From the NCBI GenBank assembly GCA_026982415.1, contig JALSHE010000092.1:1-45728 (forward strand): a DNA stretch of 45,728 bases, in the 5' to 3' direction. Origin of the DNA: Robiginitomaculum sp. (GTDB lineage Bacteria > Pseudomonadota > Alphaproteobacteria > Caulobacterales > Maricaulaceae). A model generated the notes under the pieces. The model searched no databases, was not told where the DNA came from, and worked only from the letters and a program-made list of their open reading frames with translations. Made by a program: the position numbers and the translations under genes. Positions 38,731 through 44,500 of this stretch are shown piece by piece. How positions within the stretch are numbered: position 1 is the first letter of the stretch; each line of letters starts with the position of its first letter.

Positions 38731-41412
38731 CTACTGTGCCGCCGCCGCTAGATTGCGCAGCACATAGTGTAAAATACCGCCGTGGCGATAATATTCCAGC
38801 TCGTTTTCCGTATCAATCCGGACGCGGGCTTTGATGGTTTTGGTTTTGCCGTCCTTGTCTGTGATTTTCACATCTATACTGGAGCGCGGGGTGATGTCGT
38901 TAACGCCGCCAATGTCGATGGTTTCACTACCGTTCAGGCCAAGTTCTTGCCAGCCTTCACCGTCTGCAAACTCCAGCGGTAAGACGCCCATGCCAATTAA
39001 ATTAGAGCGGTGAATGCGCTCAAAGCTTTTGGCGATAACGGCTTTGACGCCGAGCAAAATCGTGCCTTTGGCAGCCCAGTCGCGTGAGCTACCATTACCG
39101 TACAGGCCGCCAGCGAGTATGACCAAGTCTTTGCCGTCGTCTTTATATTTCATGGCCGCATCATAGATGGACATGATTTCGCCTGTTGGCACATATTTGG
39201 CCACGCCGCCCGTTGTGCCCGGCACCATTTTATTTTCAATACGGATATTGGCAAAGGTGCCGCGCATCATAATCTGGTGATTACCGCGTCTGGACCCGTA
39301 AGAATTGTACTCATTGCGCGGCACTTGGCGCTCTGATAAATATGCGCCCGCCGGGCTGTCTGCCGCTATGGCACCCGCTGGCGAGATGTGGTCAGTGGTG
39401 ATGGCCTCGCCGAGCAGAGCTAGAATATTGGCGTTTTTGACATCCTCAACCGCGTCGGGTGTCATGGTCATGCCCTCGAAATAGGGCGGGTGCTGGACAT
39501 AGGTGGAGCTGGTGTTCCAATTATAGGTTTCGCCGCCCTCGACTTTGATGTCGCGCCATTGTTGGTCGCCTTTATAGACGTCTTTATAGCGGTCTACGAA
39601 CATTTTACGGGTGATGGTTTTGCGCACCAGAGCGTCAATATCCTTGGACGTTGGCCAAATGTCGCGCAGGAATATTTCCTTACCGTCCGACCCCACACCA
39701 AGCGGATCCGTTTCGAAATTATGGTGCATGGAACCTGCCAAAGCATAAGCGACCACAAGCGGTGGTGAGGCCAGGAAGTTAGCGCGAATATCCGGGCCAA
39801 TCCGGCCTTCGAAATTGCGGTTGCCGGACAGAACGGAACACGAGATGAGATCACCGTCCTTAATGGCTTCGGAAAGCTCAGGCGCGATAGGGCCAGAATT
39901 GCCGATACAAGTGGTGCAGCCATAGCCGACCACGTTAAAGCCGAGGGCGTCCAAATGTTTCTGGAGATTAGATTTCTTGAGATATTCACCCACAACCTGA
40001 GAGCCAGGTGCGAGAGAGGTTTTGACCCAGGGCTTGGGCTTTAAACCCAAAGCATGGGCTTTCTTGGCCAACAAACCCGCGCCGATCATAACGCTGGGGT
40101 TGGAGGTGTTGGTACAAGACGTAATCGAGGCAATGAAAATATCGCCGTGGTCAACTGCGAAATCCTGGCCTTTAACGGGCGTGGGTGCGCCGTCCATTGG
40201 GGATTTATCAAATGTATTGCGCAATATATTGCCGAAATCGTGGCTCGCGGTTTTTAGGGAAATTTTTTCTTCAGGACGTTTTGGCCCTGAAATCATAGGC
40301 TCTACCGTGCCCATATCAAGGTGAAGCGTATCCGTGAACACAGGGATGACATCACCGCGCCACATGCCTTGGGCTTTGGCATATTTCTCAACCAGTTCGA
40401 TACGCCCCGCGTCGCGTCCGGTGGCCTTAAGATAAGTGATAGTGTCTTCGTCTACGGGGAAGAAGCCGCAAGTGGCACCGTATTCCGGCGCCATATTGGC
40501 CAGAGTTGCTTGGTCTTCAAGGGAGAGATGGTCGAGACCTTCGCCGAAAAACTCGACGAACTTACCGACCACACCGTGGGCGCGAAGCTGCGCGACAACA
40601 ATAAGCACTAGGTCGGTTGCGGTCGCGCCTTCGGGCATTTTTCCGGTCAGTTCCATGCCGATAACTTCGGGGATGAGCATGGAGATTGGCTGTCCGAGCA
40701 TAGCGGCTTCGGCTTCAATACCGCCAACACCCCAACCAAGGACGGACAGGCCGTTAATCATAGTGGTGTGGCTATCGGTGCCAACGAGCGTATCCGGGAA
40801 TGCAAAGGTTTCTCCGCCTTCGGTTTTTGTCCACACAGTTTGACCGAGATGTTCCAGATTAACCTGGTGACAGATACCCGTTCCCGGCGGAACAACAGCG
40901 AAATTATCAAAGGCGGTTTGACCCCATTTCAAGAAATCATAGCGTTCGCCGTTACGTTCATATTCGCGCTTGACGTTCTTAGCAAAGGCGAGGTTTGTGC
41001 CAGAATAATCAATCATGACCGAATGGTCGATAACCAAATGCACAGGGTTTTGCGGATTGATGGCGTCGGCTTTAGCTCCCAGCGTGACCACTGCATCGCG
41101 CATAGCCGCCAAATCAACTACGGCAGGCACGCCAGTGAAATCTTGCATCAATACGCGCGCCGGGCGGAACGCAATTTCGTGGGTGGACGTCTTGGTTTTC
41201 AGCCAGTCCTTGATGGCAAGGATGTCGTCCTTGGTAACGGTTTTATTGTCTTCATTGCGCAGTAGATTTTCCAACAATACTTTGAGTGAGTAAGGCAGTT
41301 TGGAAATCCCCTCAAGGCCGTTCTTCTCGGCTTCTTTTAGGTCAAAATATGTATAGGTGCCGCCGCGCACCGTCATTTCGCGTTTACAATTAAAACTGTC
41401 AAGAGAAGCCAT
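38731..41412 (-). CDS. acnA: Aconitate hydratase A
   Basis: TCA-cycle enzyme interconverting citrate and isocitrate with a 4Fe-4S cluster; 893 residues, typical for AcnA/IRP-type aconitase. Seen: the cluster cysteines in [13 protein letters not shown] and [45 protein letters not shown], and the swivel-domain [17 protein letters not shown] and [13 protein letters not shown] motifs. AAGGAT lies 8 bases before the ATG. yciB is 67 bp upstream on the same strand; the gap holds a TATAAT-like element that may be the acnA promoter. No Irr box seen in it. Confidence 0.97.
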
Positions 41413-41479
41413 GAGAATATCCTTTTAGCAAGTGTGAATTATAGTATAGCGCGGCAAATCTAAGGCCGCAATCTTTGAA

Positions 41480-42124
41480 TTAATCTTCTTCAGATTTAGC
41501 GCCAAGTTCCGGCATATGCTTCATCAAAAGCGGCATGTTGAGCATGGTAAAGACCAATGTGATGGGCAACATGCCAATCAGCTTGAAGTCCGTCCAAAAT
41601 TTCACCGAATAATTGCGCCAGATATATTCGTTGAGGACTGCGAGGAAAAGAAAGAATATGCCCCATCTAAATGCCAATGTTCGCCAAGCTTTTTCCGGTA
41701 GCTTGTAGACTTCGGCGAACATCAATTTGAACACATTTTTACCCAGCGCTAGAGACCCTAATATAGTGCCGCCAAACAGCAAATTAATGGCGGTAGGTTT
41801 CATTTTAAACACGGTCGGGCTTTTAAAGCCAATGGTAATAGCTGCAGTACCGAGAACTATTATTGCCGTCACCTTAAGCATGATAGACACCTGTCCGGTT
41901 TTCATCTTGGAGTGAATGACGGCAATAATGATTGCGACGGCAAAAACCAAAGCACCGATATAAAGCGGTGCGTCTTCGCCCGGCACACTCATGCCGAGCA
42001 GGTTAAACTGGCTGTCTGCGTCAATCATCTTGCGGGCAAGGTTGAAAACCAAGACATAAGCGAGGACGGGACCAAGGTCAGCCCACATGGAGGATTTAGG
42101 CTTTTGGGATATTGTATTATTCAT
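41480..42124 (-). CDS. yciB: YciB/IspZ-family inner-membrane protein (septation protein A)
   Basis: 214-residue inner-membrane protein of the YciB family, linked to cell-envelope integrity and septation in enterobacteria and Shigella. Seen: about five or six helices (LGPVLAYVLVFNLAR, APLYIGALVFAVAIIIAVI, VTAIIVLGTAAITIGF, FRWGIFFLFLAVLNEYIWR, LIGMLPITLVFTMLNMPLLMK) with the conserved KPT and WxxFK regions (FKMKPTAINLLFG, VKFWTDFKLIG). Its start lies 50 bp downstream of a terminator-like hairpin on the same strand, so expression may be attenuated. Weak ribosome-binding site. Confidence 0.9.
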   Translation of the reverse strand: MNNTISQKPKSSMWADLGPVLAYVLVFNLARKMIDADSQFNLLGMSVPGEDAPLYIGALVFAVAIIIAVIHSKMKTGQVSIMLKVTAIIVLGTAAITIGFKSPTVFKMKPTAINLLFGGTILGSLALGKNVFKLMFAEVYKLPEKAWRTLAFRWGIFFLFLAVLNEYIWRNYSVKFWTDFKLIGMLPITLVFTMLNMPLLMKHMPELGAKSEED

Positions 42125-42173
42125 AGCGGCGGTTTACCGAATGCACAGCAAATTGCAAGTAAATGTCGTGCAT

Positions 42174-42221
42174 AAAAAAACGAGGTGAAAAACCTTGCGC
42201 CCCGCTAGGTTTTTCACCTCG
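42174..42221 (-). terminator. Terminator-like hairpin with U-tract upstream of yciB
   Basis: CGAGGTGAAAAACC (42181-42194) pairs perfectly with GGTTTTTCACCTCG (42208-42221), 14-bp stem and 13-base loop. On the minus strand the stem is followed by seven T (plus 42174-42180). It therefore looks like a rho-independent terminator of an RNA that starts further right and stops 50 bp before yciB. Confidence 0.75.
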
Positions 42222-42323
42222 GTAACTTGCCCCAATCACAAGAACAGCAAGTTGAACCACCTTGGTATGGTGGAAATATGCTACAAACATTGCCAGCCAG
42301 CCAGTTTTCCGAGGTGAAAAACC
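42181..42323. repeat. 14-mer CGAGGTGAAAAACC in three copies (two direct, one inverted)
   Basis: Copies at 42181-42194 (plus), 42208-42221 (minus) and 42310-42323 (plus). The middle copy can pair with either outer copy. The 88-base spacer between the second and third copies carries further stems: AACTTGC/GCAAGTT and CCACC/GGTGG. Read on the minus strand the order is anti-repeat, repeat, anti-repeat, U7, as in attenuators with mutually exclusive hairpins. Alternatively 42208-42323 is a small element with 14- to 15-bp terminal inverted repeats. The divergent gap otherwise holds the promoters of yciB and the LysR gene. Confidence 0.85.
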
Positions 42324-42395
42324 GAGTAGTACTGGATTTGCCTGTATGTGCATGTTATTAAGCAAAAAATTTGATTGAGGGAGTGCAATGATTGT

Positions 42396-43367
42396 ATGGC
42401 GGGTATAGATAAAATTTCGCGCCTTGTGAGCTGGGACGATTTTTCTGTGTTTTTGGCTATATCAAAAACCGGGTCTATTTCCAAGGCTGCGGTGCTTTTA
42501 GGGCGAACGCAACCGACTATATCCAAGCGCATTGACAATCTTGAAGCCCGCCTCGGCATACAATTGTTTAAGCGCACGACATCGGGTATGTTGGCTACCG
42601 AAATTGGCAAAGCCATGCTTAGCCATGCCAGTGCTATGAACCGGAGCGCCACCAGTATTGAACGCATGGCCAGTAGTTTGGATAAATCCGGCACTGGAGA
42701 TGTGTTGCTGCGCTGTCTTGACGGCTTGGTTACTGATTGGATTATGCCTAATTTGGCAGCGTTCCAAGCGGAAAACAAGGGGCTTAACCTTAGTTTTTAT
42801 ACCCAAAATACCGCTGTTATCGATTCGGATCATGAGCCGGATCTCGCCGTGCAGTTTAACACAAGCAAGCCCATGGAATTTGTCGCCCAGCGGCTCGGAT
42901 CCCTGCATTATGTGCCTATGGTCAGCCGCGCTTATAAAGAAAAAAACGGCATTCCACGGACTATGGAGGACGCAGTTAACTACCATTTGATGTATTTGCG
43001 CCGTTCCGGCCTTGTAGTGGAAGAATGGGAGAAAAAATCCCGAGCCTTGCGCGAATTGGCCACACCGTCCTTAAGTGCCAATTCATGCTCGGTTATACTA
43101 AGCGCAGTGCTAAACGGCGCGGGTATTACCATGTTGCCGACCTATATGGCTCAATTATATCCGGAACTTGTGATGCTCGATTACGAGATTGTATATTCTT
43201 ATAATTTTTGGCTGGTGCGCGCGCCCCATACAACACAACTCGGCAGGGTTAATACCACGGCGGATTGGTTGTTGGAGACGTTTTCGTCCGCAGAACAACC
43301 GTGGTTTGACCAGGATTATATCCGTCCAAGCGAGTTTTCGGATATAGAAATCATAATGCCCCACTAG
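42396..43367 (+). CDS. LysR-family transcriptional regulator
   Basis: 323 residues from ATG 42396; an in-frame TTG at 42375 has no better support. Seen: N-terminal winged helix with WDDFSVFLAISKTGSISKAAVLLGRTQPTISKRIDNLEARLGIQLFKRT (within about 13-62), a linker helix, and a periplasmic-binding-protein-like effector domain (from GDVLLRCLDGLVTDWIMP). The domain is a shorter VTDWIMPNLAAFQ type found in many alphaproteobacterial LysR proteins. The regulated gene is often divergent; here that side carries the 14-mer repeats and yciB. The effector is unknown. Confidence 0.92.
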   Translation: MAGIDKISRLVSWDDFSVFLAISKTGSISKAAVLLGRTQPTISKRIDNLEARLGIQLFKRTTSGMLATEIGKAMLSHASAMNRSATSIERMASSLDKSGTGDVLLRCLDGLVTDWIMPNLAAFQAENKGLNLSFYTQNTAVIDSDHEPDLAVQFNTSKPMEFVAQRLGSLHYVPMVSRAYKEKNGIPRTMEDAVNYHLMYLRRSGLVVEEWEKKSRALRELATPSLSANSCSVILSAVLNGAGITMLPTYMAQLYPELVMLDYEIVYSYNFWLVRAPHTTQLGRVNTTADWLLETFSSAEQPWFDQDYIRPSEFSDIEIIMPH

Positions 43368-43372
43368 GCGGT

Positions 43373-44257
43373 TTACTCCAGATAGAGCGGTGGCTTTGGC
43401 AGGGATTCAAAATCTTTTCTCGAGTGCTGAATAATGACCTTGGCATTACTTGCTTTGGCTAGGGCTTCAAATTTATCCATGGAGCGCAAGGTTTCTTCGG
43501 CGTCGGTATTGAAAACGGGGATTGTCCGCTTTTCTCTGGCCTCATGCAGATGATAAAGGTCACCTGTTAGCAACACTGTGCCAGCTTTGGCTAATTCCAG
43601 TTTCAGAACCGTATGTCCCGGCGTATGGCCAGGCGTTTCGATAATGGTTACGGTGCCGTCGCCAAACACATCATATTCACCTTTGAATTTCACAGTTGTT
43701 GCCGTTTCCAGCGCACTATAGGCGGGGAAAGTTTGCGTGTCCTTGCGGGCGTCGTCGCGAAATAAATGGGTGTGTTCGGCTTCGCTTACCAAAAAAGTTG
43801 AAGCCGCATAAGCACCCGCATTGCCCACATGGTCAAAATGCGAATGGGACACGGAGAGATATTCTATATCTGCCGGGTTTACCCCCAGTGCATCCAATTG
43901 GCTTCCCAAGGTGGTGGGCACCGAGAGATGAAATGGCCCGTTGGTGACGCCGTCTTTCATCGCGTTGAGGGCATCCGGCAAGCCCGTATCCCACAACAAA
44001 TCGCCCTTGGGATGGCGGATCAAATAACAACTGTCCACGGCTTTATTGGTGCGCCCTGCGTAAGCGCCGCCTTTATCAAATAGAGATAAATCCAGCATAT
44101 CGATTAAGCCGCATTCCAGAGCATACATTTTTACGGTAGCCTGGGTTTTGGCAACTTGGTTTTTCGCCTCAGGGTTCGCCGCTTGCTCGGGTGGTTTCGC
44201 ATCATTATTATTACACGCTGCCAGAAAGAGCAGGCTGGCCAAAAGAACATGTTTCAT
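43373..44257 (-). CDS. Metallo-beta-lactamase-fold hydrolase, AHL-lactonase-like, lipoprotein
   Basis: 294 residues from ATG 44257, chosen because GGAGGT (plus 44261-44266) lies 3-4 bases upstream and the signal peptide then starts at residue 1; an upstream ATG at 44311 would spoil it. Seen: lipobox LAAC (Cys15), zinc motif HSHFDH (His138, His140, Asp142, His143), ETPGHTPGH with another zinc histidine, TGDLYH with the bridging aspartate, and a late IIQHSRKD histidine. This matches the N-acyl-homoserine lactonase family (AiiA/AttM type). Export as a lipoprotein would place it in the envelope. Substrate could be AHLs or other lactones. It converges with the LysR gene. Confidence 0.85.
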   Translation of the reverse strand: MKHVLLASLLFLAACNNNDAKPPEQAANPEAKNQVAKTQATVKMYALECGLIDMLDLSLFDKGGAYAGRTNKAVDSCYLIRHPKGDLLWDTGLPDALNAMKDGVTNGPFHLSVPTTLGSQLDALGVNPADIEYLSVSHSHFDHVGNAGAYAASTFLVSEAEHTHLFRDDARKDTQTFPAYSALETATTVKFKGEYDVFGDGTVTIIETPGHTPGHTVLKLELAKAGTVLLTGDLYHLHEAREKRTIPVFNTDAEETLRSMDKFEALAKASNAKVIIQHSRKDFESLPKPPLYLE

Positions 44258-44500
44258 ACTTACCTCCAGATGAAATTTCCCCCACCCTATACTACCTGCC
44301 AAAAAATCCAAGCCTTTCTCAAGCCTCAGGTTTGTATGTTCTTATACAGCCTCTAAAAAGATAAAAACAAACCATAACAAAATTTGCCGATTTCACAGAG
44401 CGCCTCATTGCCACTACAAAAAATTCATTGATTTACAAGAGTTGGCACATGGTGCTATTTGGTTCCTCATAAGAGCAATGAAACAAAGGAAAGGTGTATT

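Follow-up and report, generated by a model that had tools for sequence, protein, structure and literature searches.

Why does one 14-nucleotide sequence, CGAGGTGAAAAACC, stand three times immediately upstream of a yciB homologue in Robiginitomaculum sp.? The original prediction, made on the whole 45,728-nt stretch of DNA analysed here (the window), saw in this repeat the logic of an attenuator or riboregulator of yciB, and named a free-standing small RNA and a mini-element as alternatives. The repeat itself is as described, with exact copies at 42181-42194 and 42310-42323 on the plus strand and at 42208-42221 on the minus strand. Six matches to CGAGGTGAAAAACC with up to two mismatches lie in the window, against 0.40 expected, and none of 100 shuffles reached that number; three are the exact copies and three are scattered sites with two mismatches. 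The complementarity extends past the 14-mer: 42306-42326 (21 nt, including the copy at 42310) is complementary at 19 of 21 positions (90%) to 42205-42225, the 5' arm of a terminator. The longest exact complement between the 5' domain of the RNA and this arm is 15 nt, a length that never exceeded 10 nt when the domain was dinucleotide-shuffled 5000 times. The three-way repeat is thus beyond chance. The minus strand ends as predicted in a strong hairpin and a U7 tract (A7 at 42174-42180 on the plus strand), and the 88-nt spacer does hold two further stems. The terminator hairpin incorporates the 14-mers in its arms, as claimed; its stem is longer than the 14 bp proposed, with 15 bp, one mismatch and 3 more bp below a 3-nt loop.

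We consider it very probable that the minus strand from 42347 to 42174, which is divergent from a LysR-type regulator gene and ends at an intrinsic terminator before yciB, encodes a free-standing small regulatory RNA, probably under the control of that regulator. This was one of the two alternatives first listed, and it is well supported by comparison with related genomes, which at the level of sequence shows a conserved fold, linkage to LysR and independence from yciB. The locus has what is generally looked for in an intrinsically terminated sRNA: a conserved structured RNA, a terminator of its own and independence of the downstream gene. Its parts are listed in the table; the 5' end of the modelled RNA is taken from the conserved start of helix P1 and the 3' end from the U-tract.

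Table. Features of the sRNA locus in the window (coordinates on the forward strand)
Feature	Position	Strand	Remarks
Small RNA gene	42174..42347	-	174 nt as modelled; homologues in 8 further genomes, structure counts
P1, 5' strand	42339..42346	-	pairs with 42282-42289
P1, 3' strand	42282..42289	-	pairs with 42339-42346
Apical hairpin of 5' domain	42301..42325	-	holds the window-only 14-mer copy (42310-42323); loop ACCUC
Hairpin P2 (CCACC / GGUGG)	42257..42273	-	loop AUACCAA in the window
Hairpin P3	42224..42253	-	conserved GUGAUUGGGG in loop and 3' flank
Intrinsic terminator hairpin	42181..42221	-	arms contain the 14-mer copies 42208-42221 and 42181-42194
U7 tract of terminator	42174..42180	-	U-rich tract in 9/9 RNAs, interrupted in L061 and L062
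Presumed divergent promoter region, RNA / LysR	42348..42395	.	conserved spacing from LysR ATG to RNA
LysR-type regulator gene	42396..43367	+	divergent from the RNA; Pfam HTH_1 and LysR_substrate
yciB/ispZ homologue	41480..42124	-	Pfam IspA; next gene downstream of the RNA in the window
Promoter-like element CTTGCAAT..GGTAAACCGCC	42125..42159	-	directly before the yciB ATG, past the RNA's terminator

The consensus fold (RNAalifold) consists of a P1 closing helix, a P1 inner helix, P2, P3 and the terminator. In a MAFFT alignment of seven sequences, 90.6% of the cells at paired positions pair, and 10 of the 41 pairs have changed on both sides, against a mean of 4.5 in shuffled alignments (reached in 0 of 500 shuffles) and at most 5 in slid controls; the structure tested was derived from this same alignment. 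With nine sequences, 22 of 44 pairs have changed on both sides against 8.3, in a model-fitted alignment that leans towards the structure. The terminator stem varies in sequence among relatives with its pairing kept, and in the homologue L061 four of the six P2 pairs are exchanged around an unchanged CCAUGCAGGG core. The P2 loop reads AUGCAG or CUGCAG in the six nearest homologues, in place of the window's own sequence. Folding alone does not assign a strand, because the plus strand of the window segment folds as well by z-score (-5.14) as the minus strand (-4.33), both better than shuffles; we assign the minus strand because of the U-tract and the many G-U pairs that are kept when that strand is read.

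A consensus scan of 41400-42700 returned neither the terminator nor a sigma-70-like site on the minus strand. The internal mismatch adjoining the loop is presumed to account for the missed terminator, and a -10-like CTATnA element was noticed by eye only. The statement that the RNA belongs to no known family was borne out for Rfam 15: the window contains no match at gathering score, and GcvB and ar15 were unmatched in 42100-42420 up to an E-value of 10. Sub-threshold matches to snoR31, FsrA and OrzO-P (plus strand, E 0.22-3.9) were judged to be chance, and the loci of 13 relatives gave three tRNAs only at gathering score.

Two relatives carry local repeats in or beside the RNA. In L041, 3.9 tandem copies of a 22-nt unit, CCTCGTTTTTGTATTTAAACCT, begin in the end of the sRNA terminator (2818-2904) and fill much of the gap before yciB. 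In L043 (2749-2944) the terminator has a nested extra hairpin and the 5' domain a repeated AATTGGACGT; from this case, the stems of the sRNA seem prone to local duplication.

Homologues were sought by a DNA search of the window's own genome and 40 relatives and by a protein search for yciB in GTDB genomes, where the closest named yciB records were mostly Robiginitomaculum MAGs. Both searches led to the same six further genomes with the RNA in the gap between LysR and yciB; the RNAs of L038-L043 match those of G008, G007, G006, G005, G002 and G011 letter for letter and are counted once. A covariance model, R1, built from these six and the window's RNA, added two from the same genus, L061 (in G001; 42.3 bits, E 2.7e-8) and L062 (in G009; 32.7 bits, E 5.8e-6). 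The adjacent LysR proteins are 70% (L061) and 66% (L062) identical to that of the window. The score of L062 is close to that of a chance match, L063 (29.9 bits, in G010 and not beside LysR), so it is included mainly for its position and for the GATTGGGGCAG motif that it shares. L063 itself follows a gene that by eye resembles a TonB-dependent receptor. Along with L064, L066, L068 and L070 it was dropped after reading by eye, as terminator-like or chance matches; L063 is the one among them for which neighbouring ORFs were listed.

The RNA, 152-196 nt long, is thus present in 9 of the 14 genus genomes searched, the window's included, and in all nine it is divergent from the same LysR gene. As modelled, the RNA starts 47-48 nt from the LysR ATG in eight of the nine and 63 nt from it in the ninth. 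An orthologue of this LysR (E 1e-50 or better) occurs in 9 of the 14 genomes, the same nine that have the RNA; neither RNA nor LysR was found in the remaining five, where model matches in G010 and G003 had been dropped. Because of this co-occurrence, set against yciB in all 14 genomes, we conclude that the RNA belongs with LysR. The gene downstream is less constant: yciB follows the RNA in seven genomes, and in G001 and G009 a convergent cytochrome c gene lies beyond the terminator, with yciB on another contig. Either the LysR-sRNA pair or the yciB-acnA genes have moved in these two. Upstream of yciB at L037 and L102, the nearest yciB relative, LysR and the RNA are replaced by a stretch that to the eye resembles the end of a gene for a LuxR-type regulator. 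In the window, LysR is convergent with a gene for a metallo-beta-lactamase-fold protein (a metallo-hydrolase, 43373-44311) with a lipoprotein signal by eye; a homologue stands beside LysR in L040 and L043 and was not found in the examined flanks of L038, L039, L041 and L042.

The family is so far confined to the genus. Next to LysR homologues of 34-39% identity in the family, R1 found no RNA in 21 loci (L080-L100, out of 31 such rows), where the sole signal was a 10-bit partial match in L087. R1 and R2 gave no match beyond chance in 119 genomes of the family (E up to 0.1) or in 299 of the order and 385 of the class (E up to 0.01). These sets are overlapping drawn samples, and the stricter filters used for sets above 40 genomes lose weak matches, G001 having been missed in the family-wide search and found in the genus search. 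The only out-of-genus matches, G021 (E 0.06) and G464 (E 0.0096), are at chance level for the numbers searched.

The gene yciB appears to have its own promoter. In the window it starts ~50 nt past the U-tract, with aconitase beyond it, and directly before its ATG stands an element of the form CTTGC...GG(C/T)A(A/C)AC...ATG, which recurs in 12 of the 14 genus genomes, among them four of the five that lack the RNA; G009, where the RNA lies elsewhere, and G010 are without it. Although the pattern was fitted after viewing these same upstream regions, a scan of all 95,172 bases of the loci gave no other match; among the window's 91,456 bases (both strands) its one match is the yciB site itself. Placement so close to the start codon suggests a promoter with a very short leader or none.

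How, then, did the third copy of the 14-mer arise? It is found in the window's genome only and is absent from the eight homologues, in which the 5' domain has just 3-6 nt of complement to the terminator arm, against 15 nt in the window. Near the apex of this domain, six relatives have CUCCCC where the window has GGTTTTTCACCTCGG and the loop ACCUC. The third copy probably arose by a template switch that copied the terminator's 5' arm, a reading that the 19 of 21 complementary positions would fit; template switching is described as able to create and rewrite RNA stems (PMC8794818). The only hints of a conserved interaction between 5' domain and arm come from L039, whose pairing is far above chance (equalled by 1 of 300 shuffles; longest complement ACUCCC/GGGAGU), and from L042, where the pairing is weaker (13 of 300 as good).

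Such a copy need not disturb termination, because it forms a local hairpin (GGUUUU...GAAAAC) in which the loop is still C-rich. Minimum-energy folds of the growing transcript, which are equilibrium folds without kinetics, place the 5' copy in a hairpin by itself up to ~135 nt. For transcripts of 140-160 nt the antiterminator pairing has the lowest energy, and by 165 nt it has given way to the terminator. The complete RNA has an energy of -68.6 kcal/mol in the terminator fold and -55.4 kcal/mol in the forced antiterminator fold, a gap of 13 kcal/mol. In these models termination is the default, and a conditional switch is possible but unsupported.

These results bear directly on the attenuator that the repeat first called to mind, in which the 5' copy would pair with the 5' arm of the terminator, prevent termination and let transcription enter yciB. 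For the window by itself the idea has substance: the three-way complementarity is exact, the antiterminator fold is the minimum-energy fold for part of nascent synthesis, the window's 5' domain pairs with the arm better than 300 of 300 shuffles, and the yciB start lies ~50 nt from the U-tract. The relatives nevertheless argue against it. None of the eight homologues has the upstream copy, so that the conserved three-way pairing proposed as a check is not there; the position is not that of a constant leader, since the RNA precedes yciB in seven of nine genomes and the cytochrome c gene in two; and G003, whose yciB is the closest (94% identity), has neither RNA nor LysR upstream, in an assembly that is 87% complete. 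With a promoter-like element kept before yciB with or without the RNA, and a full-length fold that favours termination, we regard attenuation of yciB as very unlikely. A related proposal confines the switch to the window's lineage: the arm copied into the 5' domain would hold the terminator's 5' arm while transcription proceeds, and whatever binds that domain, be it the mRNA of a target or of LysR, would decide between termination and read-through into yciB, so that the sRNA gates itself. This is, in our judgement, a remote prospect; if true, one lineage would have gained a conditional leader from a plain sRNA through a template-switch mutation. We give slightly less credit still to a conserved riboswitch-like leader of yciB that senses a ligand through P1-P3 and for which the 14-mer is irrelevant. 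A conserved multi-hairpin fold followed by a terminator does stand upstream of the ORF in seven genomes, but the RNA is linked to LysR and not to yciB, the homologues share no antiterminator pairing in the 5' domain, Rfam has no match, and L061 and L062 largely contradict the idea.

That the RNA instead encodes a small peptide is very improbable. P2-P3 reads TT(M/L)QGG..FVIGAG in L040 and L041, and a TTG-started ORF of 82 codons (42365-42117) crosses the window's RNA into the start of yciB. The peptide-like reading was judged to be chance, however, the frame being lost in other relatives: by eye it does not continue from P2 into P3 in the window, L038 or L039. No ORF of at least 10 codons (ATG, GTG or TTG start) ends within the RNA in the window or in L042, the 82-codon ORF has no Pfam match, and the stem changes are compensatory. 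We reject the mini-element of ~116 bp with terminal inverted repeats almost entirely. Inverted 14-mers do lie at both of its supposed ends, but a search of the 2.73-Mb genome found neither a second copy of the segment nor the dispersed copies such an element would leave, the remaining matches being 14-27 nt long at E-values of at least 2.2; moreover, its position and internal sequence are common to relatives, as part of a larger conserved RNA.

If the locus encodes a free-standing sRNA, its transcription would start from the gap it shares with LysR, which we propose controls it. The C-rich apical loop, CUCCCC in six relatives and CACCUC in the window, could then pair with the Shine-Dalgarno sequences of target mRNAs and block their ribosome sites, as anti-SD sRNAs do. 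CUCCCC occurs in the 5' domain of six of the nine RNAs, CACCUC in that of the window, and neither in L061 or L062. We hold the anti-SD idea to be weak, since the loop is not conserved in these two and complementarity to the LysR ribosome site is short in the window itself. Shine-Dalgarno sequences are alike everywhere, so complementarity to them is weak evidence. In six relatives 7-8 nt of the 5' domain are complementary to the ribosome site of LysR, a second motif, UUCCCC, providing them in L040. The complement is only 5-6 nt in the window, where its 5 nt lie outside the loop, and in L061 and L062, and because of these short stretches autoregulation of LysR would not be general. Complements of the conserved P3 loop with at most one mismatch number four in the window's own genome, one of them the gene itself, against eight for a reversed control. 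Read-through into yciB may occur in the seven genomes where yciB lies downstream. The third 14-mer would then be a rewrite of the apical hairpin, seen in the window's genome alone and most likely made by template switching.

What emerges is an sRNA gene of an ordinary kind, for which we met no earlier account and in which one hairpin has been rewritten in an unusual way specific to this genome. In the literature searched we found no small RNA of Robiginitomaculum, none relevant in Hyphomonadaceae, and no yciB attenuator; any claim of novelty draws only on this search and on Rfam. By comparison, the striking three-way repeat is to be taken for a mutational copy specific to one lineage rather than for a switch, which counsels caution in inferring attenuation from a single genome. 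The hairpin so altered is a possible case of template switching in a functional RNA stem.

Transcription attenuators of the trp type combine a terminator with a competing upstream pairing. The window's terminator also has a possible competitor upstream, but that pairing is not conserved and the RNA is not tied to the gene downstream. A parallel in arrangement is GcvB of enterobacteria, whose gene has Rho-independent terminators and is divergent from that of the LysR-type regulator GcvA (PMC1557403), much as the terminated sRNA gene described here is divergent from a LysR gene. Unlike GcvB, our RNA finds no match to the GcvB covariance model, and its LysR scores 92.2 bits against a cut-off of 288 for the GcvA model; we therefore do not count it as GcvB. 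The nearest solved structures to this LysR are LysR proteins in general (best 9hh1, E 2.7e-18; GcvA 8y6u, E 6e-13).

The AbcR1/AbcR2 sRNAs of Rhizobiales (ar15) likewise have a LysR neighbour. Their 5' hairpin has a C-rich loop of anti-SD type, of which the putative anti-SD loop described here is reminiscent. AbcR1 is described as activated by VtlR in Agrobacterium (PMC7486931); in S. meliloti it is activated by LsrB according to PMC8844928, and PMC7486931 describes no effect of LsrB. The AbcR genes are found downstream of vtlR, which is flanked by trxB on the opposite side (PMC7486931), whereas the RNA of the window is divergent from its LysR, with yciB and a metallo-hydrolase as neighbours. 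The identified neighbours of this LysR do not include trxB, which speaks against an orthologue of LsrB or VtlR. AbcR1 and AbcR2 are also shorter, at 121 and 114 nt (PMC8844928). The ar15 model (RF02345) has no match in 42100-42420 up to an E-value of 10, and we do not assign the RNA to it; in 190 genomes of the class the same model matched nowhere, controls included, and so says nothing on the class.

Sequences of anti-SD type, in a hairpin loop or as an exposed motif, are further known from the rhizobial sRNAs SmelA075 and SmelA099 (PMC3927594) and from NfeR1 (PMC8844928). As described there, these RNAs carry CCUCCUCCC loops, three or four in number, or else a motif repeated identically three times; in the family reported here the 5' domain contains C-rich motifs once or twice. 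On our tests the RNA would be a member of neither GcvB nor AbcR, arranged like gcvA/gcvB and reminiscent of AbcR. It extends the LysR-plus-sRNA pairs of proteobacteria by a structured sRNA that matches nothing in Rfam 15 and is so far of one genus.
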